Made by a program: the position numbers and the translations under genes. A stretch of 64,000 nt of DNA from Medicago truncatula. Lineage: Eukaryota; Streptophyta; Magnoliopsida; Fabales; Fabaceae. A model generated the notes under the pieces. The model searched no databases and was not told the DNA's origin. It saw only the letters and a program-made list of their open reading frames with translations. Of the stretch, positions 35,534 to 57,348 are shown piece by piece; the stretch's first letter is position 1; every line of letters begins with the position of its first letter. The stretch covers positions 14,146,001 through 14,210,000 of the forward strand of contig NC_053043.1 of the NCBI RefSeq assembly GCF_003473485.1. The letters are read 5' to 3'.

Positions 35534-35816
35534 TTATAAACAATAAGAGCTCTTTGCGTGGGAGGAATATACATGCCAAGCTAGAAGTTACCAGGTATGA
35601 TGCCTATATTTAGGAAAGCACTAAAAGAATGCTCATTTCCTTCCACATTTTTCTCTTTTCTTTTCCCATTGGACTCTCTCTTTTCATGCCAAGACATCCA
35701 TCATGACCAATCTCCTCTCTTTCTAAGTACATATAATCATGACATAAAATATCAACCTCACTCGCACACCTAAAAGTGCTAGCCTAAACAAATTAAACTT
35801 CAACTAATGCCAAAAA
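35534..35816 (+). promoter_or_regulatory. Upstream region of the 3-ketoacyl-CoA synthase gene
   Basis: Pyrimidine-rich stretches near 35640-35730 precede the start. I see no certain TATA box. Confidence 0.3.
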
Positions 35817-37184
35817 ATGGAACTTAACTCTTTGTATTCCTCATTTGAAATGCTTGCAAAACTTATGAGCACTAATGTCTCATCTAACCATTTTTTTGCA
35901 GTGCTTTTGGTAGTAGGTTTAGCAACCCTTTTCTTTGCATGTAGAAGAAAAGTGCACATTTATTTGATTGATTTTAACTGCTTTTGCCCCCCAAGTTCAT
36001 ATAGACTACCTAAAGCCATGTTTGAAGAGAACAACTTTTTTGATGATATGGAACAAGAAGCTATTGATTTCCAAAGCAAAATCAGTGCAAAATCTGGATT
36101 CAGTGATGAAACATCCATTCCTCCATGTCTTGCTCAAATACCTAAAAGTAAAGCTCTAACCTTTGCACTTGAAGAAGCTGAGTTAATAATGTATTCAGCA
36201 ATAAAAGACCTTTTACAAAAAACCAAAATCAACCCAAAATCCATTGACATTGTAATTACTATTAGTAGCATCTTCTGTCCTACACCATCTCTTAGTTCCA
36301 TGGTGGTTAACAAATTCAAGATGAGAAGCAACATCATGAGCTTTCATCTATCAGGTATGGGATGCAGTGCTGGAATTATAGCTGTTGGTCTTGCAAAAGA
36401 CTTGTTGAGAGTTCATAGAAACTCATTGGCTTTAATAGTAAGCACAGAGACACTTAGTTTAAATTGGTACACAGGTAAAGTTCCATCTATGCTACTAACT
36501 AATTGTCTATTCAGAATGGGAGGATCAGCTATACTGATGTCAAGCAGGGTTCAAGATAAGCATAAGGCAAAGTATGAGCTAAAACATATTGCTAGAACAA
36601 TCAATGCATATGATGATCAATCTTATGCATGTGTATACCAGGATGTGGATCCAGATAACAAACTAGGTGTATCGATATCGAAGAACATAGTCAATGTTTG
36701 TGGAGATGTGTTGAAGAAAAATATTGCTTCATTGGGACCATTGGTTTTACCATGGAGGGAGCAATTCTTATATGTCGTTTCAATTATTTATCACAAACTT
36801 TGGAGTAGAAGAAGAAGAACAAGCATATATACTCCGAAATTCAATAGGGCTTTTGAGCATTTCTGCATACATTCAGGAGGAAGAGCTGTTATACAAGCCA
36901 TTGAGAAAAATTTGAAGCTAAGGAGAGAGGATGTTGAACCATCAAAAATGACTCTGTACAGATTTGGAAACACTTCATCTTCTTCAATTTGGTATGAGTT
37001 GTCATACATTGAAGCAAAAGGGAGGATGAAATGTGGAGATAGGGTGTGGCAAATTGCCTTTGGAAGTGGATTCAAGTGTAACAGTGCAGTGTGGAAATGT
37101 TTAGGTGACGTGAAGCCTGATACCACCACTGCGTGGAGAGACACTATTCACTCATACCCAGTAGATATTTTGGGAACAAACTGA
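35817..37184 (+). CDS. 3-ketoacyl-CoA synthase (fatty acid elongase condensing enzyme), 455 aa
   Basis: Catalyses the first, chain-length-setting step of very-long-chain fatty acid elongation in the ER, condensing acyl-CoA with malonyl-CoA; products feed waxes, suberin and sphingolipids. One membrane segment is visible at about residues 26-42 (FFAVLLVVGLATLFFAC). The catalytic triad is present: Cys183 in SGMGCSAGI, His352 in FCIHSGGRAV and Asn385 in YRFGNTSSSSIWYEL. Later blocks WQIAFGSGFKCNSAVWKC are intact. Intronless, as many KCS genes are. Oddities: family members usually show two N-terminal membrane segments and a Y-K-P-like motif after them, while here the region reads YLIDFNCFCPPSSYRLP; and the active-site neighbourhood reads NIMSFHLSG where N-I-x-S-x-N-L-G-G is usual. 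It is therefore a diverged member whose substrate range cannot be predicted. Confidence 0.93.
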   Translation: MELNSLYSSFEMLAKLMSTNVSSNHFFAVLLVVGLATLFFACRRKVHIYLIDFNCFCPPSSYRLPKAMFEENNFFDDMEQEAIDFQSKISAKSGFSDETSIPPCLAQIPKSKALTFALEEAELIMYSAIKDLLQKTKINPKSIDIVITISSIFCPTPSLSSMVVNKFKMRSNIMSFHLSGMGCSAGIIAVGLAKDLLRVHRNSLALIVSTETLSLNWYTGKVPSMLLTNCLFRMGGSAILMSSRVQDKHKAKYELKHIARTINAYDDQSYACVYQDVDPDNKLGVSISKNIVNVCGDVLKKNIASLGPLVLPWREQFLYVVSIIYHKLWSRRRRTSIYTPKFNRAFEHFCIHSGGRAVIQAIEKNLKLRREDVEPSKMTLYRFGNTSSSSIWYELSYIEAKGRMKCGDRVWQIAFGSGFKCNSAVWKCLGDVKPDTTTAWRDTIHSYPVDILGTN

Positions 37185-37613
37185 TACAAAGTATGAACAT
37201 TGTGTTGTGCTTGATCTTTGTTTGACTTTCATAAATGTGTACTAAAATATTGTAGCTCTGCATAAATGATTTAGATTGTAATATAATTATGGAGGTATTA
37301 TTTTTTGTTAAAAATATCATTTATAAATGATTTATTTTGTTAGATGTTGAAAAACAAAAATCAAAACTCATACAATGTATTCAAAAAAAAAAAAAAAAGG
37401 AATTCGGATTATATAATTCAAACGAAGATATTTTTGGAATTTAGTAGGGCGGATGAAAGGAGTGAGGGTGAAAAAAGAAATAGTAGTAAAAAAAAATGAC
37501 AATAGTAACTGATGATTACCCTAACAGTCAATCCCGTCTCCTCCGATTCTTATTCTGAAACCCCAAACCCTAACAGTCTCAACCAAACGCTAAACCCCCA
37601 TTCTCAAACAATC
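37185..37613. other. 3' flank of KCS and start of the duplicated block
   Basis: From about 37473 (AAAAGAAATAGTAGTAAAAA) the sequence recurs at about 41263, giving a duplication period of about 3.79 kb. Confidence 0.6.
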
Positions 37614-38598
37614 ATGGCTGATGAATTAATAGCTGATGATTTTCGTCTTGAAGATTACCAGTCGGTATGTCGAGACTTACCTAATGAGGATCGCCAATAT
37701 ATTGATTACTAGGGTCGACGGCTCGTTGTAAGAGTCACCTCCGATTCTGAAATTGTTAATCAATGGGTGAATGTAATACATAGATGTTGGACCTTGGACG
37801 GAATTTGCAGTTAACCCCAACACTCCAAACCGATTATCGGTGCGGTTTTCGGCTAGTAAACGGTCTGGAATTACAACTGCAGCTGCAGCTACCTTGACGT
37901 TATCGCACTGTTCACATATTCTGATATACGTGATTCCTAGTTTTGAGCCTATCCCTGAAGAACTCGATCGTCTATTACGTGACCATCGGATCAAGTTCTT
38001 GGGAATGATGACCGATTATCAACGAACCCTACTACGCAATTCAAGAGTTGTTGTTCGTTGTTCAGTGATATATCTGTTCAACGAACTCCCACATGAAGAT
38101 AGGACGGAATCCATGGAGTTTATTATCCGTAAGCATGATGATTTGTTGTATCGATTTCCTAACGGATTGATCGAGGTAGGTGATGTTGGAATGTCAGATG
38201 ACGATATTTTTACATCCTCTCTACTGACTTTGGCACTTGAAGATGTTTACGTGAGGTTGTTTTCTGTTCGCTATGTTTCTCTCACCAGTACGAAGGTTCA
38301 TGTACATTATGTTTAATACATTCTCCAGGCTGCGACTTTCGGTAGAGCGTCAGTTATATACATGTCTCGTCGAGCTACTGCGCAAAGCTGGTTGGAGGAT
38401 TAACTTGAGTTGCCGCCGGGTAAGAAGATGGACTTCGGTTCTTTTGTTGCAAAGAAGACCAACGATCTAAGGCCGGCCGACTCTTATTAGCTTATCAGTT
38501 GGTAACAGGGTCTTGATATATAGGTTGAGTGACCTTGCTTCAAATGATGCATCGAATTTGTGGTCTGTTCTGGATGGAGATAGACATGTTCTTCTATG
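37614..38598 (+). pseudogene. Decayed gene, Werner-like 3'-5' exonuclease-like, copy P1 (5' part)
   Basis: Begins MADELIADDFRLEDYQSVCR at the ATG at 37614. A TAG replaces a Trp codon (37710-37712; copy P2 has TGG), and a frameshift follows VTSDSEIVNQWV. The longest piece, 37840-38316, includes FEPIPEELDRLLRDHRIKFL. Out-of-phase pieces continue to WSVLDGDRHVLL at 38598. The order V-T-S-x-S-E-x-x-x-x-W, then I-P-E-x-L-x-x-x-L-x-D-x-x-x-x-x-L-G, resembles plant Werner-like DEDD exonucleases, but catalytic acids cannot be placed with confidence. At 38599 a probable LTR splits the gene; the frame resumes at 40690. Confidence 0.5.
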
Positions 38599-38784
38599 TG
38601 TAACGCCCTATTTTATTTATTTAATTATTTTATTGAGTTTAGAGTCCTTTAGAGTAATATTTTTAATTTATTGTGATGTGTGTTATTTTTGTGTTATATG
38701 TTGGTGTTTTTAGTAGCATATTATGTTATTTGGTGTAGAAATATTACATTATTTGGTGTAGAAATATTATGTTATTTGGTGTAG

Positions 38785-38786
<2 letters not shown>

Positions 38787-38832
<46 letters not shown>
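38787..38832. repeat. (AT)n microsatellite
   Basis: About 46 bp of alternating AT inside the probable LTR. Just before it, GTTATTTGGTGTAGAAATAT is repeated three times. The second LTR copy lacks the AT run. Confidence 0.95.
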
Positions 38833-38837
<5 letters not shown>

Positions 38838-39429
38838 TAGAATATTGAGGCTGAGGGGCGTAATAGGAATAAGGAAGAATGTGTTAGGTTTATAAAAAGA
38901 AAGGTTAGAAAGTCAGAATAGAGAAGACGTAGAAACTGCTTTTGGGAGAAAAAGGGAGAAAGTGAGAAGTTAGAGAAGAGAATAATCTTGTGAGAAGAGG
39001 AGCAATCTTGTAGAGTTCGATCATCTAATATAAGGTAAGGGTGGGACTAACCTTCTTTAATCATGAGTATGTAATCCTGAAAAAAGGTTTATCCTTATAC
39101 TTGTTAATAGATTTTGATGTTGTGGAATTAGGGTTTGAAACTAAAATTGATTGTAGAAAGAGTAGATAATCTGATGAACTAGGTTAATAATTGGTGTTCA
39201 GGTTGTGGAATAATCATAGGTAGTGTTTCCTATCAAATTTGAGATTTGGATTGGAGAAATTAAGGGTTTTTGCTGAAATCTGTGTTCTGCCCTGTTTCGT
39301 GTTCTTGCGTCTGTTTCATACGTTTCTGCTTTGAGTTGGTCTTTGATATAAACATGAAAGTTGTTGATAATTGTGTTATCTTTCCGGTAGTCTTGGTTTG
39401 ACATGAAAATCTTTTGTGGATAATTTATT

Positions 39430-39830
39430 ATGTTTCTACGAATATATATGATGAATTATTGTTGTTGAATATGATGTTGTTTATGATTGATGAATCATTA
39501 TATGAATACATATGTTGATGAATGTGATGTTATATGATGTTGTCCATGCTTGATGATTTATTATATGAATGTATATGTTGATGAATATGATATTATATGA
39601 TGTTCATGGTTGATGATTTATTATATGAATGTATATGTTCATGAATATGATGTTATATGATGTTGTTCATGCTTGATGAACTATTGTATGAATGTATATG
39701 ATGTGATGAATATGATGTTATATGTTGATGAATATGATGTTATATGATGTTGTTCATGCTTGATGAATTATTGTATGAATGTATATGATGTGATGAATAT
39801 GATGTTGTTCATGATTGATGAATTAACAAG
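39430..39830. repeat. Minisatellite, about 62-bp unit
   Basis: Imperfect copies of a unit containing GATGAATATGATGTTATATG and TTGATGAATTATTGTATGAA. The same array, longer, is at 43190-43970. Confidence 0.85.
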
Positions 39831-39889
39831 TCATAATGTGAAGTTGTTGTTGTGCATTGGTTGTGTCAACACATAATCATTTTAATCGA

Positions 39890-39970
39890 AGGGAGCTTGA
39901 TGCTCTGTTATTTAACCGAAGAGGGCTTGATGCTCTGTTGATTTTAAACGAAGAGAGCTTGATGCTCTGA
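39890..39970. repeat. Hairpin-bearing short tandem repeat (3 copies)
   Basis: Three copies of a roughly 33-bp unit around GAAGAGAGCTTGATGCTCTG. Each core, AGAGC-TTGAT-GCTCT, can fold as a 5-bp stem. Four copies occur at 44035-44150. Confidence 0.85.
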
Positions 39971-40689
39971 TGGTACCACATACATATTGCATTTGATGAG
40001 TTGTTGTTGTTGCGTTGTTGAGTAAAGTTAATTGATGATTTATAGTTGAAATCATGTGAAGCATTGTTGATGATGATTTGAATGATGATGATTAATTTAT
40101 CTTGACGATGAGAGTAATGAAGTATAATTATGATGTTGATTTGCCGTTGTTTTGCGTTGGTGAATTCTCTTACTTAAAATATTGTTTATTAGTATTGTTA
40201 ATGATGAATTGATGCTATTTTATGTTGTTGAATTCTCTCACATGAGTTATTGTGTATTAGTATTTTTATGATGAATTGATGTTGTTATGTGTTGTTAAAT
40301 TCTTTTAATGAATTATACACTTATTATTATTGAATATGAAATCTCACCCCTTCTGTTTGAATGTTGCCTCTACGTGGGTAACGTGCAGATAACCAGGAGT
40401 AACCGCTGATGTGAGTTGATTCCTTGTGTCGTATGAATTTATTGTTGGACCATTTTAATGGATTTTAATTACGTTGTTTATGTTGAGGCCTTGATGCCAA
40501 CTTGTTGAAAGAATAAATATTTTCCGCTGCGACGTTGTTGAAGTTTATTGAAAGCAGATGTTTTAATAAATAGTGATTTTTAACTCTATTGTATTAAATG
40601 TTATTTTTGAAGAAAGAATGTGACATCCTGTTGTGGTGAAACTCTAATTATTTTGCATTATTTACATGTTGGGAAAACGAGGTGTTACA

Positions 40690-40800
40690 CTTGGTTTGCA
40701 TTCAAACTTCGACCAAGTAGCCTTCGGCTGGTCAGGTCGTCCAGTTTACTGCGCTTTCGTGAGAGTGTCTTACATAAGACGAGAATAGCATGGAGTTAGA
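40690..40800 (+). pseudogene. Copy P1, 3' part beyond the LTR
   Basis: The open stretch reads LHSNFDQVAFGWSGRPVYCA and then FVRVSYIRRE before a TAG. This continuation shows that the 2.1-kb element interrupted a longer coding sequence. Similarity fades by about 40950. Confidence 0.5.
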
Positions 40801-41468
40801 AGATCTATTTTATAGCAAGTTTGGAATTTCTTGTGAGTTTGAGAAAACTGTTGATCATCGCTGGGGTGATGATGATTTGGAGGAAAATCATATAGTAACG
40901 GCTGCCGTGATACCTATATTTACGATGCAGCTGCAAGAATCATCACTTAGGCCTGGAATGGTTTGAAATTGCTCAAAAACAACAATGCAATAGGATTCAA
41001 AAAACTTACTTGTTTTTGTGATTGAAATTGGCTTGGAATGGCTAGAAATTGCACCTTGGATATCAAAAAACGTAATAATAGAGTTTTGGAAACTCTTATG
41101 TCTGTTATGTTCTTATAAAAAAAATTGGCAGTATACTCCCGAGGTTTTCCACGGCAGTTAACTGCAGACGGTTTTTGAATTCCTTGGCAGTTAACTGCAA
41201 TAGCGTATTTTACTTGTGTGCCTGAGCCTTATGTAATATGTCAACAGCAATTTTCGCGAAAAAAGAAATAGTAGTAAAAAAAAATGACAATAGTAAAAAG
41301 AATGTTACTTTTAACTTAGACTCTACAGTATTAACCCACCCATGTTGTTCTCACTCACTCCAAATGCTGCTAAACCCTAGCAGTCAATCCTGTCTCCTCC
41401 GATTCTTATTTTGAAACCCCAAACCCTAAGAGTCCCAATCAAACATTAAACACCCATTCTCAAACAAT
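40801..41468. other. Decayed 3' flank of P1 and junction of the tandem duplication
   Basis: Short repeats of TTGGAATGG-type and GGCAGTTAACTGCA-type motifs occur at 40960-41200. The duplicated block restarts near 41263. Confidence 0.4.
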
Positions 41469-42440
41469 CATGGCTGATGATTTACGTCCTGAAGATTACC
41501 AGTCAATATGTCGAGACTTACCTAATGAGGATCGCCACTATAATGATTACTGGGGTCGACGGCTCGTTGTAAGAGTCACCTCCGATTCGGAAATTGTTAA
41601 TCAATGGGTGAACATGCAATACACAGATGTTGGACCTTAGACGGAATTTGCAGTTAACCCCAGCACTCCAACCTATTATCGGTGGGGTTTTCGGCTAGTA
41701 AACGGTCTGGAAATGCAGCTGCAGCTGCAGCTACATTGAAGTTATTGCATTATTCACGTATTCTGATATACGTGATTTCTAGTTTTGAGCCTATCCCTGA
41801 AGAACTCGATCGTCTATTACGTGACCATCGGATCAAGTTCTTGGGAATGATGACCGATTATCAACGAACCCTACTGCGCAATTCAAGAGTTGTTGTTCGC
41901 TGTTCAGTGATAGATCTGTTCAACGAACTCCCACATGAAGATAGGACGGAATCAATGGAGTTTATTTTCCATAAGCATGCTGATTTGTTGTATCGATTTC
42001 CTAACGGATTGATCGAGGTAGGTGATGTTGGAATGTCAGATGATGATGTTTTTACATCCTCTCTACTGACTTCGGCACTTGAAGATGTTTACGTGAGGTT
42101 GTTTTCTGGTCGCTATGTTTCTCTCACCAGCACGAAGGTTCATGAACATTATGTTCAATACATTCTCTAGGCTGTGACTTTCGGTAGAGCGTCAGTTATA
42201 TACACGTCTCGTCGAGCTACTGCGCAAAGCTGATTGAAGGATTACCTTGAGTTGCCGCCGGGATAGAAGATGGAATTCGGTTCTTTTGTTGCAAAGAAGA
42301 CCAACGATCTAAGGCCGACCGACTCTTATTAGCTTATCAGCTGGTAACAGGGTCTTGATATATAGGTTGAGTGACTTTGTTTCAAATGATGCACCGATTT
42401 TGTGGTCTGTTCTGGATGGAGATAGACATGTTCTGTTTGG
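41469..42440 (+). pseudogene. Decayed Werner-like exonuclease-like gene, copy P2
   Basis: Tandem duplicate of P1. It starts MADDLRPEDYQSICRDLPNE and reads farther in frame (YWGRRLVVRVTSDSEIVNQW) to a TAG at 41637-41639 where P1 has TGG. It shifts frame at RWGFRLVN, then continues as a 162-aa frame at 41682-42170 (HYSRILIYVISSFEP; LFNELPHEDRTESMEFIFH; FPNGLIEVGDVGMSDDDVFT). P1 and P2 carry different stops, so each has decayed on its own since the duplication. The right edge is the second LTR. Confidence 0.5.
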
Positions 42441-43189
42441 TGTAATGCCCTATTTTATTTATTTAATTATTTTATTGAGTTTAGAGTCCATTAAAGTAAT
42501 TTATTTAATTTATTGTGATGTGTGTTATTTTCGTGTTATATGTTGGTGTTTTTAGTAGCATATTATATTATATTATATTATGTTATTTGGTGTAGAAATA
42601 TTATGAGTAAGGAAGAATGTGTTAGGTTTATAAAAAGAAAGGTTAGAAAGTCAAAATAGAGAATACGTAGAAACTGCTTTTGGGAGAAAAAGGGAGAAAG
42701 TGGGAAGTCAGTGAAAAGAAGAATCTTGTGAGAAGTGAAGCAATCTTATAAAATCCGATCATCTAATTTAAGGTAAGGGTGGGACTAACCTTCTTTAATC
42801 ATGAGTATGTAATCCTGAAAAAAGATTTATCCTTATACTTGTTAATAGGTTTTGATGTTGTGGAATTAGGGTTTGAAACTAAAATTGATTGTAGAAAGGG
42901 TAGATAATCCGATGAACTAGTTTAATAATTGGTGTTCAGGTTGTGGAATAATCATAGGTAGAGTTTCCTATCAAATTTGGAATTTGGGTTGGAGAATTTA
43001 AGGGTTTTTGCTGGCATCTGTGTTCTGCTTTGTTTCGTGTTCTTGCGTCTATTTCATACGTTTCTGCTTTGAGTTGGTCTTTGGTATAAACATGAAAGTT
43101 GTTGATAATTGTGTTATCTTTCCAGTAGTCTTGGTTTGACATGAAAATCTTTTGTGGATAATTTATTATGTTTCTACGAAGATGTATGA

Positions 43190-43970
43190 TGAATTATTGT
43201 TGTTGAATATGTTGTTTATGATTGATGAATCATTATATGAATACATATGTTGATGAATGTGATGTTATATGATATTGTCCATGCTTGATGATTTATTATA
43301 TGCATGTATTTGTTGATGAATATGATGTTATATGATGTTGATGTTGCTCATGCTTGATGATTTATTATATGAATGTATATGTTTATAAATATGATGTTAT
43401 ATGATGTTGTTCATGCTTGATGAATTATTGTATGAATGTATATGATGTGATGAATATGATGTTATATGATGTTGTTCATGGTTGATGATTTATTATATGA
43501 ATGTATATGTTGATGAATATGATGTTATATGATGTTGTTTATACTTGATGAATTATTGTATGAATGTATATGTTGATGAATATGATGTTGTTTATACTTG
43601 ATGAATTATTGTATGAATGTATATGTTGATGAATGCTTGATGATTTATTATATGAATGTATATGTTTATAAATATGATGTTATATGATGTTGTTCATAAT
43701 TGATGAATTATTGTATGAATGTAAATGATGTGATGAATATGATGTTATATGATGTTGTTCATGGTTGATGAATTATTATATGAATGTATATGTTGATGAA
43801 TGTATATGTTGATGAATATGATGTTACATGATGTTGTTCATGCTTGATGATTTATTATATAAATGTATATGTTGATGAATATGATGTTATATGATGTTCT
43901 TCATTCTTGATGAATTATTATATGAATATATATGATGTGGTGAATATGATGTTCATGATTGATGAATTAA
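43190..43970. repeat. Minisatellite, about 62-bp unit, expanded copy
   Basis: The same unit as 39430-39830 but roughly twice as long, showing unequal expansion since the tandem duplication. Confidence 0.85.
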
Positions 43971-44034
43971 GATGTCATAATGCGAAGTCGTCGTTGTTGT
44001 TGTGCATTGGTTGTGTCAACACATAATCATTTTA

Positions 44035-44150
44035 ATCGAAGGGAGCTTGATGCTCTGTTATTTAACCGAAGAGAGCTTGATGCTCTGTTGATTTTAAACA
44101 AAGAGGGCTTGATGCTCTAGTTATTTTAAACGAAGAGAGCTTGATGCTCT
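44035..44150. repeat. Hairpin-bearing short tandem repeat (4 copies)
   Basis: Four copies of the unit around GAGCTTGATGCTC, against three in the first LTR. The 93-codon minus-strand frame at 44062-44343 is an artefact of this array. Confidence 0.85.
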
Positions 44151-44295
44151 GATGGTACCACATACATATTGCATTTGATGAGTTGTTGTTGCGTTGTTGA
44201 GGAAAGTTAATTGATGATTTATAGTTGGAATTATGTGAAGCATTGTTGATGATGAGTTGAATGATGATGATTAATTTATCTTGACGATGAGAATA

Positions 44296-44665
44296 ATTAG
44301 ATCTGTTCAACGAACTCCCACATGAAGATAGGACGGAATCCATGGAGTTTATTTTCCGTAAGCATGCTGATTTGTTGTATCGATTTCCTAACGGATTGAT
44401 CGAGGTAGGTGATGTTGGAATGTCAGATGACGATGTTTTTACATCCTCTCTACTGACTTCGGCACTTGAAGATGTTTACGTGAGGCTGTTTTCTGGTCGT
44501 AATCGCTATGTTTCTCTCACCAGTACTAATGTTCATGAACATTATGTTCAATACAATTTTATCTCTCTTGATGTATGTAGGCGAAACATAGAAGTTTTGT
44601 CTCTGATGGTTAAATATGTGCATGCCAATGATTTCTTGAGGAGAAATGAATTTTATAATGACTAA
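44296..44665 (+). pseudogene. Exonuclease-like fragment, copy P3
   Basis: Starts abruptly with LFNELPHEDRTESMEFIF, matching the middle of P1 and P2, and runs to ALEDVYVRLFSGR. There it has two extra codons (NR) and diverges after HEHYVQY. The 107-aa frame ends at 44665 in unrelated sequence. It lacks both the start and the end of the gene. Confidence 0.55.
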
Positions 44666-44794
44666 AACAAAACATCAAAGATCATATAAGCATCGTTATA
44701 TACACAATTTTTAGAATTTAAATATTTTTATAAACTTATACACTTGTACAATTCTCTTATGTCACTGAAAGGGTGAAGGTCCTAAAAATTCTTA

Positions 44795-45650
44795 CTAGGT
44801 GTCATTTAACTTGGACCCATTGAGGTATTGGTCCATGATGGACCAATTATTTCAACCATTAGATTGGATTATCTACAAAAGCTTATCATAGTCTATCAAC
44901 ATCAAATTTAACTCATCAACTCTCTCTCATTGCACTTTCTTCTTCCTTTGTCCAGAAAACCCATTTATAGCTGAAGGTGAGTTTCTTTCATTGATGATCT
45001 TTTGGCTATTGATTCACCGAAAAATAAATCTGTATGTAAAGCCAGCTTCACCAATTTTAATAATCTCAATTGTATGTAAATTTATACATTAATTGTCCAT
45101 TTCCCCTATTAACTTTTAGTTTTTTTTCTCTACCTCTGATTTTTTTCTCGTCCACAGAAACTTCGTTTTCTTTTATAAACATTTGACTCTTTGATTATTT
45201 CATTTTTATTTTATTCATAACATTGAACTAGCAGATTTACTATCCAGCTTACAAAGATTTTATCAGTTTATATAATGAAAGGTTATTCAAGAAATTAATG
45301 TTCAAATTTAAATTGACAAAATTCCAGCAAATCTGTAGTTTTTGTTAAGGATGCCGCAAGATACCAAAATGATTCATAACAAAGAAACTAAAATTTTAAT
45401 TTTTGGATTGAGCTTTTGTTAAGGTGAACCACTCGGTTAGGAGTGAAAAATTGAGAAGAAATGTTGTAGTTTTATTGCATAATTGGAGGAGAGAGAAGAG
45501 AGGTACAATGACAGAAGATAAAGTTGGAGTTTAAATTTATTATGAGTGAACCATGATAAAATTGGATAGGTACCATAATCAAACCGTTGAAAAAAATTGG
45601 TTCATGATGAACCAATATTTTGATGGGTCTATTCTATACGGAACCTTCTT
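44795..45650. mobile_element. Terminal-inverted-repeat DNA element
   Basis: The left arm near 44810-44880 (GGACCCATTGAGGTATTGGT) is inverted at 45560-45635 (complement AGACCCATCAAAATATTGGT). Each arm carries a near-palindrome: TTGGTCCATGATGGACCAA at the left, TTGGTTCATGATGAACCAA at the right. Exact ends and target duplication not resolved. No transposase. Confidence 0.6.
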
Positions 45651-45689
45651 ACTATATTATGCTAGCATGGCTCTCAACAACCCTATGTC

Positions 45690-45917
45690 CAGGGGCGGTT
45701 CTAAGGCCCGGCGACCCCAGGCACTCGCCCGAGCTCCGGGCCAAATTTTTTGTAATTTCTTGTGTAAATCCCTATGAATTTCTTATATAAACCCCTATAA
45801 ATTGGGCAATTTCTTTACACTTTTTATTATTTGCTTGCAATTTCTTATGTACGCCCTATAAATGTGTTGCAAATTTTTTTTTGCCCGAGCTTTACAATAT
45901 TCCTGGCTCCGCCACTG
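45690..45917. mobile_element. hAT-type MITE
   Basis: 228 bp beginning CAGGGGCGGTTCTAAGGC and ending CTGGCTCCGCCACTG. The 8-bp flanks CCTATGTC (45682-45689) and CTTATGTC (45918-45925) differ by one base. CAG-G-GGCGG ends with 8-bp duplications are typical of hAT elements. Confidence 0.82.
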
Positions 45918-45979
45918 CTTATGTCGGTGTTTAAATGGTGGAGAAGGGTTTATTTTTATTGTTCCTTAATTTGAGTGTT

Positions 45980-46143
45980 GGTGTTCATAAGTTGAATAGT
46001 GCAATTGAAAGGTAGTGTTTTGCCTATGCAAAAATAGTATAATAGCTTATTCACTTATATTGGTGTTCATAAGTTGAATAGTGCAATTGAAAGGTAGTGT
46101 TTTGCCTATTCAAAAATAGTATAATAGCTTATTCACTTATATT
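45980..46143. repeat. 82-bp tandem duplication
   Basis: Two adjacent copies starting GGTGTTCATAAGTTGAATAG at 45980 and 46062; they differ at only one position that I saw (TATGC against TATTC). Confidence 0.9.
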
Positions 46144-46383
46144 TATGTTTTTGAGATTAAAATTGTTTGCAAGATAATTTTCTATATAGACAAAACTTGA
46201 TACTACCTAAAGCCAGGGGATCCTGTGAGCTCTAGCCACTAGACCATTTGATAAAAAAAAAAAATTCTTCAGAAAATGACATGTTATGTTCTACATTTTT
46301 ATAGCATCATCTCTCTCCACTTGTCTTGATCTTTTAAAAACAATGAAAATCTCATAATTATTACGATAAATACATCATCACTA

Positions 46384-46490
46384 ATTAAATTATATTTGGA
46401 TTGAAGGTTTTGAAGGGGAGGGCTTACTTTTCTTTTTTAAATTATAAACATTATAAAATGTTTTTGAAAATAAACTACTTCATGAATAAC
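46384..46490. repeat. Half of a MITE related to the one in PRL1 intron 3
   Basis: Contains GGAGGGCTTACTTTTCTTTT and matches, on the opposite strand, the right half of the repeat at 56027-56205. It directly abuts the inverted PRL1 fragment. Confidence 0.65.
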
Positions 46491-46492
46491 TA

Positions 46493-47299
46493 CTTGAATA
46501 AGCTTGCCAAACACCTTTTTTCCCAACAAAAAGGAAGTCTAGTTTCATCGCAGCCGAACTGTGGACTACCAGGGCCCACTTCCCCCGGAACCGAGAGTTG
46601 AGACAAAAAAAAGAGACTGAAGACCATGCAACTGAAGTCTGAATGAATGATTAATGTAAACACATAACTGAAACCCTATCTGAGCGCTAAACTTCTAATA
46701 AAATGGTAAACGCAGAACTGAAACCATACAAGCTTCAACTAATACAAATGCCAGAAAACAGAAGGCAAAGATAATAACACACGGTAGCATCAGCTGAGCA
46801 TCTCTTTACTTCAATATTAATAAAGAATCAGATAGTTTCCTGTGAGATAAATCACAAAAGCAAGATCAATTTGTATTTGTTTGTTAGTTGTCTATAATTA
46901 ATATTCATGTTCAAGTTATACTGCTTCAAAGATATTGGTTAGACAAATATTCTTTTATAATAATTGACACATTTTCATTATTTGTTGTATTTGCAGCTCT
47001 CAACAGAAAACTATTATCAATGCAATGGCTGTCAATGAGGAGGGTGTTATGGTTACCGGAGGTATTGGCCTAGAATTTAATAAAGTTCTGTTGGAGATTT
47101 TGTTTGATACAATAAACTAATTTAATCCTTGTCCACTAATTTTCATGATCTTGTAACAAGGGATTAAATTCCCCATTATTTACTTGTCATATGGAATTTA
47201 ATTTTAAACTTTATTTTCCCTGTTTCAGGTGACAATGGCAGTATGTGGTTCTGGGATTGGAAGAGTGGTCACAATTTCCTGCAATCTCAAACAATTGTA
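46493..47299 (+). pseudogene. Inverted partial copy of PRL1 (exons 15-16 with introns)
   Basis: Aligns with 50423-51252 on the opposite strand: part of PRL1 intron 14, exon 15 at about 46997-47061 (STQQ-less start, then MQWLSMRR in a shadow frame; in the true frame [20 protein letters not shown]), intron 15, and exon 16 from GTGACAATGGCAGTATGTGG at about 47229. Copying ends within exon 16 at ACAATTGTA. One base change turns CCAGCAATC into CCTGCAATC. Since introns are retained, it arose by DNA duplication, not retroposition. With the real gene it forms a large inverted repeat. Confidence 0.9.
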
Positions 47300-47603
47300 T
47301 TTCATTAGCTTTGCAATTTGGTTTAGTGTATAAAATACAGAACCCACAAAACACAAGCAAAAAGAAAAAAGAAAGAATTTTGTCAGTCTATGCTTTTGTG
47401 ACATTGTTTGTCTAATTTTCTGTGTATCCGTTCATTCAAGCAAAGTTTTTGGTGTAGTTTAAGGGTTAGGCAGGAAACTTATAGTCTAAAATGTGACTAC
47501 CTTTTTACTTCAACGATTTTCTTTTTACGTTATGTGTAAGTTTTAATTTCTTTTTAACATATTATGGAAAATAAAATAAAATCATTTATTTGTTATGAAT
47601 ATA

Positions 47604-47835
47604 ATAAGTGGATGTCCAGAAACCCTTGTATTTATCTGTTAAGTGACAACATATTACTTTTCTTTTAAGTCACATCTATTTGTACTTATCCTTACTTAAC
47701 TTTTGAGTCATATCATTGTACTTCTCTATAAATAGAGACCACATGTAACATAATTGTACACCACAAGAGAATATTGTTTCTCTCTTCTTCTTTACTTCTC
47801 TTTATTCTTGTTCTTATTTTAATAGTTTCATAACA
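47604..47835 (+). mobile_element. Possible copia-type LTR
   Basis: TATAAATAGAGACCACATG at about 47730, then a pyrimidine-rich stretch and an end at TTTCATAACA followed by CGCTCTAACAC. This layout (TATA box, short leader, CA end, then A-A-C-A-C-G) resembles copia LTR ends. The start is uncertain and no second LTR was seen. Confidence 0.4.
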
Positions 47836-49998
47836 CGCTCTAACACAATTTCATCAATTGAAATTAGTGTCTTATAGATACAATAAATCATTATTATGTG
47901 AATGATATTATATTATTGTGTTTACTTATTTCATATACAATCCTAAAGTATTGCATAAGGATTGATCTCATATTATAAAATATTATGTAGTTCTTGAAGA
48001 ACTCAATATTATTCTATGTGAATTCCGGAAGAATTTAAAAGCGTGGTTCCTGAAGAACTCACTATTATTCTTTGTGAATTCTGAAGAATTCTAAAGTCTA
48101 ATTATCGAAAAAATCAATATTATTATCTGTTAATCCGAGAAGAATTCATCAAAAGAATTACATCCCTGAAAGATGACTTGGAGGATTAATTTTATTGTTT
48201 AAATTTGTTGTAAAGAACTTAAAAAGCTAATATTTATTCTTCATGAATAATTCTCAGGAATTGAACAGTGATGCATCCTTGGAGTATTGCACATAGAATT
48301 GATTTGATTGTGTGTAATTATCAAGAACTTAAAAATTCAATTTTTATTATCCATGAATTACTGGAAGAATTCAACCGTGATACGTCTATGCAGGATTGCA
48401 TAAAATATTGATTTGATTGTGTATAGTTCCTCAGGAGAGCTTCTAAACACAATTTTTATTCTCTGAAAATTACAAAAGAACACAATAATGATGCATATCT
48501 CAAGCAGATTGCGCAGTAATTGATTTGGTTGTGATTGTTGTTAATATGTCACGCTTAAATATTTTTGTGAAAATATAGAAAATTATTTATTTTTCCGTTA
48601 CATGATTTTGTTTGGTCAAGTTTCGGTTACATGGTTTAATGTATCAATATGTATTGCGTAGGTGGTATTTTTTATAACAGCAATATTACTTTTTTGGAAA
48701 TAACAAACTGATACAAAAACATAATGTAACTAATTTAATTTTTCTTCTAATTATATGGCTCATATTATTTGTTTTATATAACCAATAGCAATATCATATC
48801 ATGGTTATGATAATTAATTTAGTTGATATTACTATATAATAATAGGTCATAAAATAATTTAGTTGATATTACTATATAATAATAGGTCATAAAATTCCAT
48901 TAGTATAAACTTGTATCAGTTGGGTTGGGAAATTAATGTCATATTAAAGATTTTAATGATACGATCATATTTCTATTATATGGATTAAATCATGCAAGAT
49001 TGTTTCCTTATTCTTAGATAATTAAAGTTTGGTAATGATTTTCTTCTTTTTTATTGCATAAGAGTTCTAGAATGCTTGAATCACAGGCTAAGCACAAACT
49101 CTTCTCTACATAATTTTTGAAAATATCTTCTATGAATTGATGTTCTCTTATGTACTTCTAAATCCTTCAAGATTATTTATTATCTCGTAAATATTATATG
49201 TTAGATATGTATATTTTCTTATGAAATAAATTTATTTGATCTTGATCTTACATATAATATAAGTTTTAGAGATGTCAAACTTTAAAAAAATGTATATATA
49301 TATTCTATTGATAATTTGTGCTGCCTAACTACTCACGTGAGAAATTTGATGATTTATAAAATCTTATTTGTTGGAAAAATTTTGTGTTTAACTTTTTCTC
49401 TATCTATGCTAATGCAAAAGATAAATAAAGATTTTATAATATTTATTGTATAGCTTCACTTTGACATAATATTTTTTGTTCATTATTGTTTCAAATAGAC
49501 AAAAACAAATGAAACACATAATGTTGTAAACCGGAAGTTTACAAATCATGTTTCAAATTTCAAATGGATTAGCACAATTGAATCATATATTATTGTAAAC
49601 TTGAAGTTTACATATTATATTATTAGTGCAATGGAAGCAAATATTATTGTAAACCAGAAGTTTACAAATCGTTGGCAAGACAGGTTGGGTTATCCTGAAT
49701 CTATTATGTGCATAAACTATTTGAAAAAATGGATATATATATTGAAGAGTCAGAAGATTCTTCAATCTAGTAACTATTATATGTTACTAGTTTCCATATA
49801 AAGTTGTCAATTTAAAAGAATGAGTTCCTCACTTACTTATATAAGGTGCTATTTAAATTAATACAGGAGTCACATAAATCACTTGGATACTCACAGCTAG
49901 AAGTTTGTGAGATTATTATGTCAACAAACTTGGAGATTCATTCTTTAGACGTCTAAAGTTAATTGTATGATTAATACTATTGGCAGTACAATGGTACA
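47836..49998 (+). mobile_element. Decayed Ty1-copia internal region
   Basis: At 49601-49801 a plus-strand frame reads FTNRWQDRLGYPESIMCINY, matching the gag-pre-integrase block (x-L-W-H-x-R-L-G-H-P-x-x-x-x-x). The rest is AT-rich and broken; recurring GAAGAATT and CTGAAGAACTC motifs at 48000-48500 look like a repetitive leader. A 40-bp direct repeat lies near 48812-48892. It fills the space between the two PRL1 arms. Confidence 0.55.
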
Positions 49999-50118
49999 AA
50001 AAAGATGAGAAAAGTATGTTACAAAGAGAAGTGTGACTAAATAATTGTACATCAAGACCTCCAAGTAACAGAACATCTAATCAAAATGTGCATTACACGA
50101 CCGAATAGGACCGCGTAA

Positions 50119-53100
50119 CTAGAATCGACGGATGTCTTTAGGAGGCCTGAAGTTGAGGGGATGTGTTTCTGGAGTGGCATTGTCATCTTCTTTCCACATT
50201 TTTATGGTCTTGTCTGCTTCACATGATATAAGCCTCGTGCCCGTGACATCATAGGTTAAAGCATAAATACCAGCTTCACTGTCCAGTGAACCTGTAAGAG
50301 GGAAGGTTGGGGAAAGCGGAAAACAGATAACAGTCATTATATATGTATATCAATCATGTGCATAACAGCCAACTAGCATCAAACTGAGCATGTAAAAGCA
50401 GTCAAATATGCATACCAGGTTGTACAATTGTTTGAGATTGCTGGAAATTGTGACCACTCTTCCAATCCCAGAACCACATACTGCCATTGTCACCTGAAAC
50501 AGGGAAAATAAAGTTTAAAATTAAATTCCATATGACAAGTAAAGAATGGGGATTTTAATCCCTTGTTACAAGATCATGAAAATTAGGGGACAAGGATTAA
50601 TTTAATTTATTCCATCAAACATAATCCCCAACAGAACTTTATTAAGTTCTAGGCCAATACCTCCGGTAACCATAACACCCTCCTCATTGACAGCCATTGC
50701 ATTGATAATAGTTTTCTGTTGAGAGCTGCACATACAATAAATAATGAAAATGTGTCAATTATTATAAAAGAATATTTGTCTAACCAATATCTTTGAAACA
50801 GTATAACTTGAACATGAATATTAATTATAGACGACTAACAAACAAATACAAATTGATCTTGCTTTTGTGATTTATCTCACAGGAAACTATCTGATTCTTT
50901 ATTAATATTGAAGTAAAGAGATGCTCAGCTGATGATATCCATTTTCTATGTGTATACCGCGTTTATTATCTTGCCTTCTCTGTTTTCTGGCATTTGTATT
51001 AGTTGCATCTTGTATCGTTTCAGTTCTGTGTTTACCATTTTGTTAAAAGTTTAGCGCTCAGATAGGGTTTTCAGTTATGTGTTTACATTAATCATTAATT
51101 CAGACTTCAGTTGCATGGTCTTCAGTCTCTTTTTTTTTTGTCTCAACTCTCGGTTCCTAGGGGAAGAGGGCCCTGGTAATCCACAGTTCGGCTGGGATGA
51201 AACTAGACTTCCTTTTTGTCGGAAAAAAAGGTGCTCGGCAAGCTTACTCAAGTTATCATTTGTGTTAGCACATCATCTCACCAAGGGCAAGGCTCTTTCT
51301 ACCTCCATAGTCACAGTTTGTGATCCAAGCTAAAAATGTGTGGTCCATATCAAATTCTCAATGGCTCACACCCTCGTTTAGCTTGACGGGGGAGAAATGG
51401 AGTATAGAGATGCTATGTTGATATTCATCTTCCAACAAGTTCACTTTTGTTTATTCGCTAGCCTTCTCTGTTTTCTAGCATTTGCACTAGTTGCAGCTTG
51501 TATATTTTCCGTTTTATGTTTATTAGTTTTATTAGAAGCTTAGCTTATTCTAAAATATTTTAATCTGTAACTAACTCAAAGCAACTCAGTTAGTTACAGT
51601 TATTTAGCAGCGTAGTATCTACAATCTATATATATCTTAGACTACTGCAATTTTTTCTTCCGATTAATTTCAGCAACATTTTACAATTACAGTCCACTTT
51701 CATTTTTCTCTCTTCTACCATAAAAGGTAAACCTAATAGTCAATGTTCCCCATAACCACACAAGTTTGATAAGAATAAGTTTATGAACTCACAGCATATT
51801 GTGACAAAATTCTCCTTTTGGAAGGGTGAACTTTTTAATATTATCAGCTGATGCAGATGCAAAAGCTTGCCTGCAGCCAACAAAGAAGAAAAGGTGAGAC
51901 TGAGAAGACAAATCGAATAACATATTTAAATAATATTAACAAACAATTCAACCGTAGTTAAATAGTTAATCGTTCTACAAGTAACAATCAACTGATATTG
52001 AACACATACTCTTTAGGATGCTGAGCCATTGCTCGAACAGACTTTTTATGGTTTGTAAGAGTTGACATTGTTTTACCTGCATGAACGCATTGTGTGTAAG
52101 ATTGGTGCAAAACACATTCAGGAACTAAATTCAAGTGCATATATAATCACCAGCAGAAAGAAAGAAAAACAAGTTACAAGAAAAACAACAATAAATTACC
52201 ATATCTAAGGTCCCACATCTTGATTGTAGAATCGTGAGAACCAGTGACAACTTGAGGGTCCTATTAACAAAAATGAGCAAAATAAGGCTCCCCAGAGAAT
52301 GGAAAAAATAAGGTTTAAAAGTATAAAACTATATTAAGACATATTTCAAAGCCGCATTTGAATAATGAAGTCTGAGTACACATTTATCATATCAAAGAAC
52401 TTGTAGTGGAACTAAGCCACTCAGATAACCCTACATGCCATTATTACAGATATTTATATGTCAGAGGACAGAACTAGGGACACGTAGATTACTGACCATA
52501 CAATATTAGGATTACCAATATTAAAAAATATAGACAACAGGAAAAGAATCTACGTACCGTTGGCCGTGTAAACACAGAGCAGACAGTGTTCTCATGACCT
52601 GAAAGAGCATGAATCTGCATTTTACTGCGTATGTCCCAGACCTGAAAATTTAGTATCATCAAAGTATAGTGTCACATTTCTACTTCCATAATAATATATT
52701 TGTTTTTTAAAAATTGAAATAGATGCGCCGAAAGTATTGCATCCATCTAAATCTAAATATACCATCAATTAACTATATCAACAATGTCCATACCCGGCAG
52801 ACAGAATCACGTCCTCCAGTCAGTAAAATGTCAATTGTGGGATGAATAGCCAAGCAATAAACACCACTCAGATGACCGTGATAAGACCTAATAACCTAAA
52901 TAAAACAATATAACATGCTTTAGTGGCCAGATATATTCAATAGAGTTCCGTAATTGCTGAAATATTCACCAGAAAAACAAATACTGTAGGAATTTTACCT
53001 TATTCTGTTCAAGATCCCAACATTTAACTTGTTTATCATCACCAGCAGAAAACATGTAGGTATGTTTGTGGCTAATAGCAAGGCCTGTAGAGAAAGCACG

Positions 53101-56100
53101 GTGTTAATACTAACCCAGTTCACAATAGCTGCCACAACTATTAAATAATTATATCTTGGCTCCTCACCTCTTACTTGTTCAATGTGACCTGTTAATGTGA
53201 GCTTTAAAACACCACTTGCCAAGTCCCATATCTGCCCAAATGAACAACTTAGCAAAAACAAAAAACACCCAAAGCTTTGAATAGGACAGAAAAAAAATTA
53301 TAAACTCGGCATGAATAAGTTAATTAACTATTTCAAAGTTCCTAGCTTCAGTTTAGAGCAAATATTGAGTCAATATTTATAATAGATAATTGACATGATG
53401 TGTATGGATAACTCTAGGAAAATAATATATATCCTTTCAAAAACAAAAACAAAACAACAAAAAACTCAAGGAAAAGAATACAGAGAAATTTAACTTCTAA
53501 TATTTAACAAAAAATTGCAGCAATTTAAAACTTGAATCTGAAATTAATTAACAAAAGGTATAAGCATAGCGAAGCCACGCACAAGCCAAACATACATCGT
53601 GCATGGCTTGGGTCACTGCACTAGTTGCTTAAAAAGGACGGTTGTTTTAGATTAAATTGCAAATAAAGAAACACACAGAATGAACAATTCAACATGGGTC
53701 CCATGTTTACCATCTTATCTACATGCCTTCTCATAACAAGAAACAATGACATACATTTTGTGAACAAATACCTTGATAGTTCGATCTGCAGAACCAGTAG
53801 CAAACCATGTATTACTGGGATCAACTGCAACAGATCTCACCCATCCTAAGTGACCACTGATGACCTACAGAAAATAACTAATGGTTATATTTCTGAGCTA
53901 AAAATATATCAGAAGTATTACAATTTAAAAGGATATCAGAAAAATTATGTGTGCTAGACCTGATTAGAATGAACGAATTAAGCCATTAGCAAACACACAA
54001 ACCATTATTTTGATATAATGTCAGCCTATGAATAGCCAAGCTTTAAAATTGAAATTTGTGGTGTTGAGTAGAACCTGTAAAGCATTACCAGTTCTATGTT
54101 TTAAATGGATTTTAAAATTGATTCTTTTTTACTGTATAGTGGATGCCAATGTAGATCTCTTTCTCATTATTAACCAGCACAAAATTTTGCTAAGCCCCTA
54201 CAAACAATAAGATAATGATCCAAATCCAGCAGATGAATGGAAATTATGAAAGTAATTAATCCAAGGTATCCTTGCACTTATGGTAAGAAAATGGGGCTAT
54301 AGGAAGGTGGAATTAAACAGGTCCTTCGTCTAAACTACTGGCTAGTGTACCAAACATCCCCAACTAACATTGGTTTTGGTTCACAGAATCTGAGAATGAA
54401 AAAGAACAAACCTAATACCATCATCGATCATCTTTTTTTTTTAATGGAAAATGTTAGTATGTTAATTTTCATGTTAGTTTTTTTCTCCCCAGAACTTGAA
54501 CACTGGACCTCCAACTCCTTAACCCTTAGCTCAAACCAGTTGAGCTACCCGTCCCCCCAACCACTCATCTATCATTAAATAGTTAAAGAAGTGGTCAAGT
54601 AGTTCTCACCCTGTAGTTTTTCCATGGTGCATGCCACACAGGTCGTGGCCATTTACTTGGCATTCTTTCCATCAAAGCGGATGTTGAGAAATTCCTGTAA
54701 TATTTCGAAACTACAAAAGTTTAGTCAAAAAGGTCAAACCAACAAAATGTCAATCCTAAATATATTCAAATTGAGTAAAAAAAACAGATGATAGTGTGCA
54801 GAACCAACAAAATGCGCATAAAAATAAGCTATTAAATATAGAGGCATCGAGAGAAAGCCAGAACCTTTCAGATGAGCCAGAGGTAGAAACAACTACTGTA
54901 TTTTTGCCCTGAAAACCAAGACCATTCCTGTAAATAAACATAACATAAGAACCAATCAATCAAGCACCCTTAACAGCTGCTCAAAAACTTTGCATGCTGC
55001 ATGTAACACAATCTATGTTTATTTGGAACCTATTATGGCTTTCCTTTCTACAACAGAACGGAATAGTAATGAAAAGTGAATTCAAGATATTGTATTAAAA
55101 TCTTCTTTTTGGTGTAAAATATTGTATCAAAATCTATGAATTTTCAAAAAACATCAAAACACAATAAAAGATAAATGGAACATAATATTTCCCTATGCAT
55201 GAAATACTTTTATATTTTTCTTTTGAAAATAAAATTTCACACCTTAGCAAATTTTCCTCAACTTCTGCAATCTTTTCTCGTGTTTACATCATAACAGTTT
55301 TATAAAATATTGAAAGCCAAATAGGCTCTTCAAAAATATTTCATAATACTGAACATAACAGGATTTATTATTAAGCTTTTGCAAGCAGAACGTATGATTC
55401 AAATCACAACTGTTAGGCAAAAATCATATAACTATGACCAAATCAGATTATTCATGAGCAAAAGATTGTTCCTAGCCAAAATGTGTACAAGTTAAAGAAA
55501 AAATATTCTTACGTAGCAGTGGATGGCATAGATGGACCAACAACCAAAGCATTGTGGGCCCCTCCTTTCTGGAGATCCTTGGAATCTCCTGGACCTGTCG
55601 TTATAATACATAAAAACACTCTCTCAAATCCAATCTATGTTGTTATAATACTCAAATTAAAATTATACTCTCTCAAATCCAATCTATGTTGTTATAATAC
55701 TCAAATTAAAATTATATTAATCATAACATTCTTTTATCATTCTCTGTAAAAACACTCTCTCAAACCAGGTGCAAAATTTCTCTCTATTTTCCTCTCCTGC
55801 TCTCCCCCCATATCCCTCCCCTCACCTCCAAACTCTCAAACAGAGCCTCCAGGTCTGCAAAAGCCTATACACATTACCCTCAAAAGTTAAAACAAAGTTT
55901 CCATAAACCAATATAAATAACACTTACTCTCCTACAAATTCAAATCCCAAAAAGGAAAAACACAACAATATTACAGGCAGGCTTACTGATGTAATACAAA
56001 TAATGGCAATATAACAAGAAACTAAGGGTCCATTTGGGAGGGGGTTTTGGAGGGCTAAGTCTATATCTTGAAATATAATTGATATTTAAAAAAATAAAAA

Positions 56101-57348
56101 ATTTAAAGAACACTTAGTTTATTTTAAAAAACATTTTATAGTGTTCGTAATTTAAAAAAGAAAAGTAAGCCCTCCCCTCCAGAACCCTCAATCCAAACAT
56201 AATTTAAATGTTAACCACATTAGCAAAAAGATTCTTAGAAACCATTACGAACTAGGTGTCAATTCATCAATATTCCACCAACTAGATAATCATATTCATA
56301 AACCAAGATGATAACTATAACTATGAGTCCCATATTCATACCTGGAAGAGCAAGCACGTTAGAAGACCCTGCTTGTTGAGAGTGATTCTGTGTAGCAGAA
56401 TTTGTCTGCTGGGAAGGTTGAGCGGTACTTTTAATTCCACCATACTCAACATGTACCTAATGTCCATTACAAACCATATTAGCATACTACACCTATTCAT
56501 ACTAATCAACAACAACAACCAAGCATTACCCCAGTAAGTGAGGTCGGGTACATGAATCAAACGATGTCATAATGCTCTATCGTATACCATATAGTTTTTC
56601 CAAGTCTTCCTTTGCCTCTAGTGATTTGACTACTCTCCATCTGACCTACTCTCCTTACTAGTTAGAGAATCTACAAGTCTTCACTCTACATGCCCAAACC
56701 ACCTAAAGCCTAGTTTCCACCATCTTTTCTACTATAGGTTCATTCATAATAATCTTAAATAAAATAAAAAAACTAAAAAACTTAATAGCCCTCAGAAAAA
56801 TCCAAACTTTATACAATTAACATCCCATCCCAATCAAGGGCAATATAAGAGTACCAAATATAAGTATAATTAAGATAAAACTAAACTCATTATGACTACA
56901 AACCGCATTAGCATAACTACACATCTATTCATAATAATCCTGAAAGAAAAAAAAAAAAAAAAAAAAAACTTGATAGCCATCAGAAAAATCGAAACTTCAT
57001 ACAAAACTCAAAATCAAATCCATGATTATAAGTAACTGCATTATGATTACTAAGTTATTAAAATTAACAAAATTAAAAACAAACCCATTACGAGTAAGTA
57101 TAATTAAGATGAAACTAACCTTGTAATTGACACGAATTTTCTTGCTGCAAAAGAAAAAAAAAAGGAATAAGCGTTGAGTATATGAAAAGGGGAAGAATTA
57201 AGAAGAGAAAAGGAAAAAGGAGGAACCTTTCGGCATCAGGAGGAGGGAGTTGTTGATGAACGGGAGAGAAGAGATCGAGGGCACGTTTAAGGGATTTGAA
57301 GCTAAGCTTTTTTAGGGATTGGGGTTCAACTGGTTCTATTGCCTCCAT
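50119..57348 (-). CDS. PRL1: PRL1 (pleiotropic regulatory locus 1) WD40 protein, 17 exons, 480 aa
   Basis: Nuclear WD40 protein of the Prp19/NTC (MAC) spliceosome-associated complex; in Arabidopsis PRL1 affects splicing, sugar and hormone responses and immunity. Exons in transcript order: 57227-57348, 57120-57144, 56342-56456, 55513-55594, 54865-54927, 54610-54694, 53772-53864, 53168-53231, 52999-53084, 52794-52895, 52558-52641, 52200-52260, 52010-52076, 51793-51870, 50661-50725, 50416-50493, 50119-50291. All introns are GT..AG and the sum, 1443 nt, is exactly 481 codons; Arabidopsis PRL1 is about 486 aa. The N-terminus reads [20 protein letters not shown], conserved in the family. Seven WD repeats run from about residue 165 ([58 protein letters not shown]-like; [13 protein letters not shown]) to the end [14 protein letters not shown]. 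Introns hold a SINE and two MITEs. PRL2 is a possible alternative name. Confidence 0.95.
50423..51252 (-). repeat. Right arm of the PRL1 inverted repeat
   Basis: The part of PRL1 (end of exon 16, intron 15, exon 15 and part of intron 14) that is present inverted at 46493-47299. Differences are few, mostly small indels and substitutions. Confidence 0.9.
54430..54565 (-). mobile_element. tRNA-derived SINE in PRL1 intron 6
   Basis: Minus strand: A-box-like GTAGCTCAACTGGTTTGAGC near 54550, B-box-like GGTCCAGTGTTCAAGTTC near 54495, T-run at 54431-54441 as the tail. It lies in the PRL1 sense orientation within the intron between exons 6 and 7. Confidence 0.7.
55597..55860. mobile_element. MITE-like repeat with internal 53-bp duplication in PRL1 intron 3
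   Basis: CTCTCAAATCCAATCTATGT with the following 30 or so bases is present twice in tandem (about 55618-55670 and 55669-55720). The same family is at 26150-26480. The left edge touches the 3' splice site of PRL1 exon 4 (acceptor bases 55595-55596). Confidence 0.65.
56027..56215. mobile_element. MITE in PRL1 intron 3
   Basis: Inverted ends: GGGTCCATTTGGGAGGGGG with GGTTTTGGAGGGCT on the left, and AGCCCTCCCCTCCAGAACC with CTCAATCCAAACAT on the right. About 180 bp. Half of a sister copy is at 46384-46490. Confidence 0.75.

Follow-up and report, generated by a model that had tools for sequence, protein, structure and literature searches.

An inverted fragment of PRL1 downstream of the gene in Medicago truncatula, probably the scar of a single faulty repair or replication event

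The PRL1 gene of Medicago truncatula is followed on its 3' side by an inverted piece of itself. Both lie in a 64,000-nt stretch of contig NC_053043.1 (positions 14,146,001 to 14,210,000; hereafter 'the window', with positions counted from its first base), where PRL1 is read from the minus strand and the piece, the left arm of a large inverted repeat, has its gene sense on the plus strand (Table 1). In our reading, to which we give a probability of about 0.6, the left arm is a gene fragment without function, the remnant of one faulty repair or replication event on the downstream side of PRL1. The arrangement suggests that a segment was inverted and that 0.8 kb was copied into one of the joints. 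The original prediction, made from the letters of the window, described the repeat but missed that the left arm runs on into DNA that elsewhere lies downstream of PRL1, here called X, and it is this continuation that points to an inversion scar.

The derivation of the repeat from PRL1 is borne out by self-BLAST of the window, in which the two arms match in inverted orientation at 93% including gaps (E=0), and by a repeat search of 44000-54000, which finds an ungapped core of 515 nt (97%) whose two copies are 3,123 nt apart. Once the gaps are better placed, 32 of the 807 aligned bases distinguish the arms (17 transitions and 15 transversions), with a further 25 gap columns in nine gaps; the aligned bases are about 96% alike. 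The right arm comprises 71 of the 78 nt of the penultimate exon of PRL1 (50416-50493), a 167-nt intron, the whole antepenultimate exon (65 nt, 50661-50725) and, from the 1,067-nt intron that adjoins this exon, 528 nt. The corresponding pieces are present in the left arm, including half of the last-named intron; this arm keeps both donor and acceptor of the intron between its two exons, terminates within the penultimate exon and may begin raggedly, by eye as far left as about 46479. It is a non-processed pseudogene fragment with introns kept and the coding region truncated, and the presence of introns means that it was copied from DNA. That introns are included had been foreseen correctly; the exons, which had been called 15-16, are the antepenultimate and part of the penultimate (our model of 13 exons lacks some N-terminal ones). 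The predicted separation of 3.1 kb holds between the arms, whereas the PRL1 stop and the left arm are 2.8 kb apart.

The differences between the arms are unevenly spread, with 1 in 136 exon bases and 31 in 671 intron bases (Fisher p 0.03), as would be expected if the exons of the right arm are under selection. Alignment of the arms, as had been proposed, gives an approximate date: the introns are at a distance of 0.048, which amounts to 1.8-3.7 My if 1.3e-8 and 6.5e-9 substitutions per site and year are assumed. A search of the genome (429.9 Mb, 42 contigs) with the right arm yields 14 matches. Besides the query and the left arm (93%), they comprise a partial copy (75%) and a piece of 127 bp (90%), the former on the same contig, as well as ten shorter stretches of repeat. 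Nothing speaks for an assembly artefact beyond the repeat itself, and we hold this to be very improbable because the arms differ throughout; moreover, the joint between the left arm and X is found nowhere else in the genome and the contig is 52 Mb long.

The gene that hosts the right arm was identified from its product. After splicing, its C-terminal 350 aa are matched by PDB chains of PLRG1/Prp5/Prp46 (best E 1.1e-179), which are spliceosome proteins. The 13 exons of our model have GT at 12 of 12 donors and AG at 11 of 12 acceptors (exon 54610-54711 was set one base off), and the last twelve encode this open 350-aa protein. The ATG chosen as the likely start is at 57348. Three minor features of the introns may be recorded here. 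The intron stretch 50751-51457 (about 0.7 kb) is largely without counterpart in the partial copy, a repeat of 81 bp stands at 50961-51041 and 51449-51529 (81% alike), and the 127-bp piece mentioned above (50755-50880) stands alone at C2:2705090-2705216, about 90% alike.

The earlier state of the locus can be approached through the partial PRL1 copy, which lies on the same contig (C2, 6.410-6.413 Mb), 7.8 Mb from the window. It is 73-82% alike piece by piece (78% over the two longest pieces), begins at about residue 160-180 and has an in-frame stop just ahead of its end. The adjoining C2:6408797-6409348 corresponds to window 36681-37287, where the gene at 35808-37184 ends; the product of that gene matches FAE1/CUT1 (ketoacyl-CoA-synthase-like). 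The whole of C2:6408797-6413028 looks like a copied tail-to-tail segment. X lies between these two genes in the partial copy, where synthase end, X and PRL1 tail have a set orientation to one another. The window preserves this for the synthase end and PRL1, whereas X is reversed against both and fused to the left arm: in the orientation of that arm, its pieces 47297-47401 and 47444-47562 correspond to C2:6409776-6409880 and C2:6409452-6409565. The gene order of the partial copy is probably the older one. A simple staggered-break inversion, with the arms as duplicated ends of an inverted 47300-50422, was rejected, since the order in the partial copy (exon, last intron, last exon, tail, X) means that the last exon was not reversed.

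The two joints of the rearrangement share a single position in the PRL1 tail, 49987. The joint between the left arm and X reads CAATTGTA followed by TTTCATTAGC, and the PRL1 tail ends in CCATTGTA; the hexamer ATTGTA is thus common to the penultimate exon and the tail, a microhomology of 6 nt. On the gene strand of 49987-50493 this hexamer occurs exactly twice, at both ends of the 436 bp that are absent from the left arm, and a shared stretch of at least 6 nt is seen at 0.3% of random same-strand joints drawn from 46-58 kb. At the second joint the PRL1 tail ceases to match the partial copy at its ATTGTA (49987); 8 bases follow, and then comes repeat sequence, probably the interior of a retrotransposon, which is cut at 49978. 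Four genome copies of this repeat stay alike for about 65 nt beyond the point at which the window diverges (a fifth copy, L026, was excluded from the comparison, having no match up to that point).

A single event would have run as follows. The chromosome would have broken at the border between the PRL1 tail and X, which we infer to have once been in contact, directly after ATTGTA. The X end would then have used the same hexamer in the penultimate PRL1 exon as a primer site, and about 0.8 kb of PRL1 would have been copied (exon, intron, exon, intron) before the copied end was rejoined to a break in a repeat resembling a miniature inverted-repeat transposable element (MITE) at the left. X and part of the retrotransposon would thereby have ended up reversed, and 8 extra bases would have been added where the other, cut end of the reversed segment met the PRL1 tail. 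A break at this border, hexamer-primed copying and reversed rejoining would together explain why both joints use one position. Template switching of the microhomology-mediated break-induced replication or fork stalling and template switching type leaves microhomology at a joint, a copy of nearby DNA, extra bases at the other joint and a reversed neighbour. The PRL1 locus resembles it in its microhomology joint, in a left arm copied from nearby PRL1, in its 8 extra bases and in an X reversed relative to the partial copy; unlike such cases, it is seen only as an old scar and the number of steps is reconstructed.

Several points weigh against a single event. The alternative order is known from one relative, which is itself a diverged partial copy. 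Past the PRL1 tail this copy has TTTCA, then about 0.2 kb (C2:6409881-6410096) bounded on both sides by GTATTTCA, and then X. The 0.2-kb stretch may be a later insertion into the partial copy. If it is not an insertion, X began after AAGTA and the joint shares only GTA; sharing of 3 nt or more is expected by chance at 7% of joints, and the coincidence of the two joints would lose its force. Finally, the flanks (about 1.5 kb a side) of five genome copies of the repeat that is cut at 49978 match nothing else in the window, and hence nothing to the left of the arm, but 39 bp of the MITE-like repeat, so that some further loss of sequence has to be assumed.

The same hexamers can be accommodated by an origin in two steps, which we regard as rather unlikely. 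A fold-back duplication would first have made a longer inverted PRL1 end together with X; later, 436 bp would have been deleted between the ATTGTA repeats of the left copy, and the original X would have been lost separately, with the retrotransposon in its place. The two hexamers are indeed direct repeats flanking exactly the absent 436 bp, and X would have travelled with the copy, so that no separate inversion is needed. However, the cutting of the PRL1 tail at the very same base would stay a coincidence. A genome search with 47300-47600, which skips very common words, found no second X besides that of the partial copy, its three matches being the query itself and two pieces of that copy. Capture of the PRL1 piece by a DNA transposon or Helitron that inserted near PRL1 is very improbable. 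The left end of the left arm does abut a truncated MITE-like repeat, but the fragment continues into PRL1-downstream DNA rather than into the ends of an element, and the two arms account for all five inverted pairs of at least 30 nt in 44000-54000 (shorter ends were not searched). As context only, a comparison of two M. truncatula ecotypes reports 5,701 inversions and 9,038 duplications in 78,634 variants (PMC8862580).

The original prediction attached a function to the arms, in that read-through from PRL1, or another transcript across 46.5-51.3 kb, would form double-stranded RNA (dsRNA) that is diced into small interfering RNAs (siRNAs) and lowers PRL1. RNA silencing from an inverted repeat is possible in principle, but a working hairpin is improbable here, and we rate the locus as an ordinary scar with a small chance of being a real PRL1 regulator. 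The part of the proposal that stands is the capacity to pair. The arms are predicted to pair over 785 bases at -1316 kcal/mol (for 20 random 808-nt stretches of the window the average was -215 and the lowest value -267 kcal/mol), and 341 of 811 right-arm 21-mers are perfect in the left arm, as are 76 of 103 exon 21-mers (45/45 of one exon and 31/58 of the other). The part that fares badly is the precursor: a spliced PRL1 read-through transcript would retain only 135 pairable exon bases, and the left arm lies 2.8 kb past the stop behind retrotransposon sequence, so that antisense RNA needs this extra transcription. Traces of methylation are equivocal, and a methylation scar was rejected as a candidate. 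There is no excess of transitions between the arms (17:15), which speaks against methylation; the CpG observed/expected ratio (0.33 and 0.40 in the arms, 0.50 in the window) weakly favours past methylation but is not decisive. A MIRNA (microRNA gene) precursor was likewise rejected, since arms 3.1 kb apart do not make a compact foldback, and no known RNA family in Rfam matches 46000-51600 at gathering score. By title or start of abstract, a literature search on PRL1 siRNA and hairpin inverted repeats in M. truncatula returned nothing on this locus.

Precedents bear on the silencing hairpin in both directions. The closest is the Arabidopsis VIM4-VIM2 locus (and PAI4-PAI1), also an inverted repeat of a silencing-linked gene, introns included, with inversions and transposon activity nearby (PMC13213937). 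In the Cvi accession two genes stand head to head, with about 96 bp between start codons, 99.86% identity and an unpaired centre of 50 bp, and siRNAs are reported; in Col-0, with about 2.8 kb between start codons and 92.22% identity, none are reported, the siRNAs being described as Cvi-specific; spacer and arm identity changed together (PMC13213937). The PRL1 fragment, by contrast, measures 0.8 kb and faces its parent tail to tail across a 3.1-kb spacer, with 96% identity over the aligned bases. The soybean I locus (GmIRCHS, CHS1-3-4) is similar in that a broken gene copy forms a tail-to-tail inverted repeat close to working members of its family; it has a promoter part from another gene (GmJ1), a centre of 78 bp and dsRNA that was detected (PMC13051633). 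A short unpaired centre is usual but not strictly required, and the 3,123 nt of the PRL1 repeat compare poorly with both. A soybean i-i candidate, a proposed silencer with 10.91-kb arms, has a 5.71-kb centre (PMC13051633), and a long spacer is therefore unfavourable rather than prohibitive.

Pairs of pseudogenes and parents that yield siRNAs in rice provide a further comparison, since there too non-processed fragments occur no more than 10 kb from the parent gene (PMC2708354). Of 38 siRNA-yielding gene-pseudogene pairs, 21 lie within this distance, as against 437 of 11,956 pseudogenes overall, which raises the prior for silencing somewhat, although the latter figure also indicates that the layout alone is not rare (PMC2708354). 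The rice pairs were called from small-RNA reads, unlike the PRL1 pair, and the study demanded a hairpin loop of less than 2 kb, here 3.1 kb (PMC2708354). Inverted duplication as an origin of MIRNA genes likewise takes an inverted part-gene copy as its raw material (PMC3237417), but the PRL1 arms differ from such duplications in their spacer and in lacking a compact foldback or an Rfam match.

Antisense RNA to the 3' end of PRL1 could also arise without any part being played by the left arm, if the long terminal repeat (LTR)-like unit at 47591-47835 were to drive transcription rightwards. Its orientation and TATA-like box would permit this, but the sequence downstream is degenerate, has stops in all three plus-strand frames and is cut off, and we find such a source very doubtful. 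The ends of the unit, TGTTATGA...TCATAACA, and its TATAAATA box are taken by us as LTR signs, and the repeat sequence that follows (47836-49978) we assume to be Copia-like. At the other side of the left arm, 46150-46491 as a genome query gives at least 47 matches, at least 45 of which are to the MITE-like stretch and distinct from the query itself (40 of 482 first-look candidates were scored), and an inverted copy of that repeat, 91% alike, lies at 56115-56207 in a PRL1 intron.

A more speculative role follows from what PRL1 does. The protein helps Dicer-like enzymes make small RNAs and promotes the accumulation of miRNA and siRNA (PMC4256206), so that a hairpin derived from PRL1 would act on its own processor. 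The repair scar might then have given birth to an autoregulator dependent on the state of splicing, a self-limiting loop within the silencing machinery, which strikes us as a remote prospect. The long double strand would form only in PRL1 RNA that is neither spliced nor terminated; an overload of splicing would bring the hairpin about, PRL1 protein would assist in dicing it, and PRL1 would be lowered as a result. Were siRNAs made from the arms, the locus would act as a natural check on a protein that itself raises miRNA and siRNA levels (PMC4256206), comparable to VIM4-VIM2 in Arabidopsis. As a scar, it would show at base resolution how a break beside a gene can leave an inverted gene piece, such pieces being the presumed starting point of silencing loci and MIRNA genes. 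At the level of DNA, recombination between the arms is predicted to invert the last PRL1 exon and so separate it from the gene.

Table 1. Features of the PRL1 locus, in window positions
Feature	Position	Strand	Remarks
Truncated dispersed repeat (MITE-like, label presumptive)	46385..46477	.	Abuts left end of left arm
Left arm: inverted partial PRL1 copy	46492..47299	gene sense on +	
Left-arm copy, antepenultimate exon	46997..47061	+	65/65 nt identical, splice donor GT kept
Left-arm copy, penultimate exon	47229..47299	+	First 71/78 nt, one difference (Q to L)
ATTGTA at left arm/X joint	47294..47299	+	Same hexamer closes PRL1 tail
X: DNA downstream of PRL1 in partial copy, reversed here	47300..47562	+	
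LTR-like unit TGTTATGA...TCATAACA with TATAAATA box	47591..47835	+	Reads towards PRL1
Repeat sequence, probably retrotransposon interior, one or two elements	47836..49978	+	Cut off at 49978
8 nt linking retrotransposon and PRL1 tail	49979..49986	.	Extra bases at second joint
PRL1 3' tail	49987..50118	-	Matches partial copy up to ATTGTA at 49987-49992
PRL1	50119..57348	-	Stop ends 50119, chosen ATG 57348; 13 exons modelled, some N-terminal exons absent from model
Right arm, within PRL1	50423..51253	-	

The remainder of the window holds a cluster of mTERF-like genes in both orientations at 3799-28853 (Pfam mTERF in two frames tested). One reading frame of this region, 24338-25021, begins as mTERF, and its end resembles what we take to be sequence of a long interspersed nuclear element. 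Repeated blocks at 37470-44555, with 92% identity across 1.25 kb and 95% across 258 bp, now stand between the synthase gene and PRL1; an open frame within them, 37777-38313, has no Pfam match. Closer to the left arm, 45978-46141 is an abutting tandem pair of 82 bp, 99% alike.

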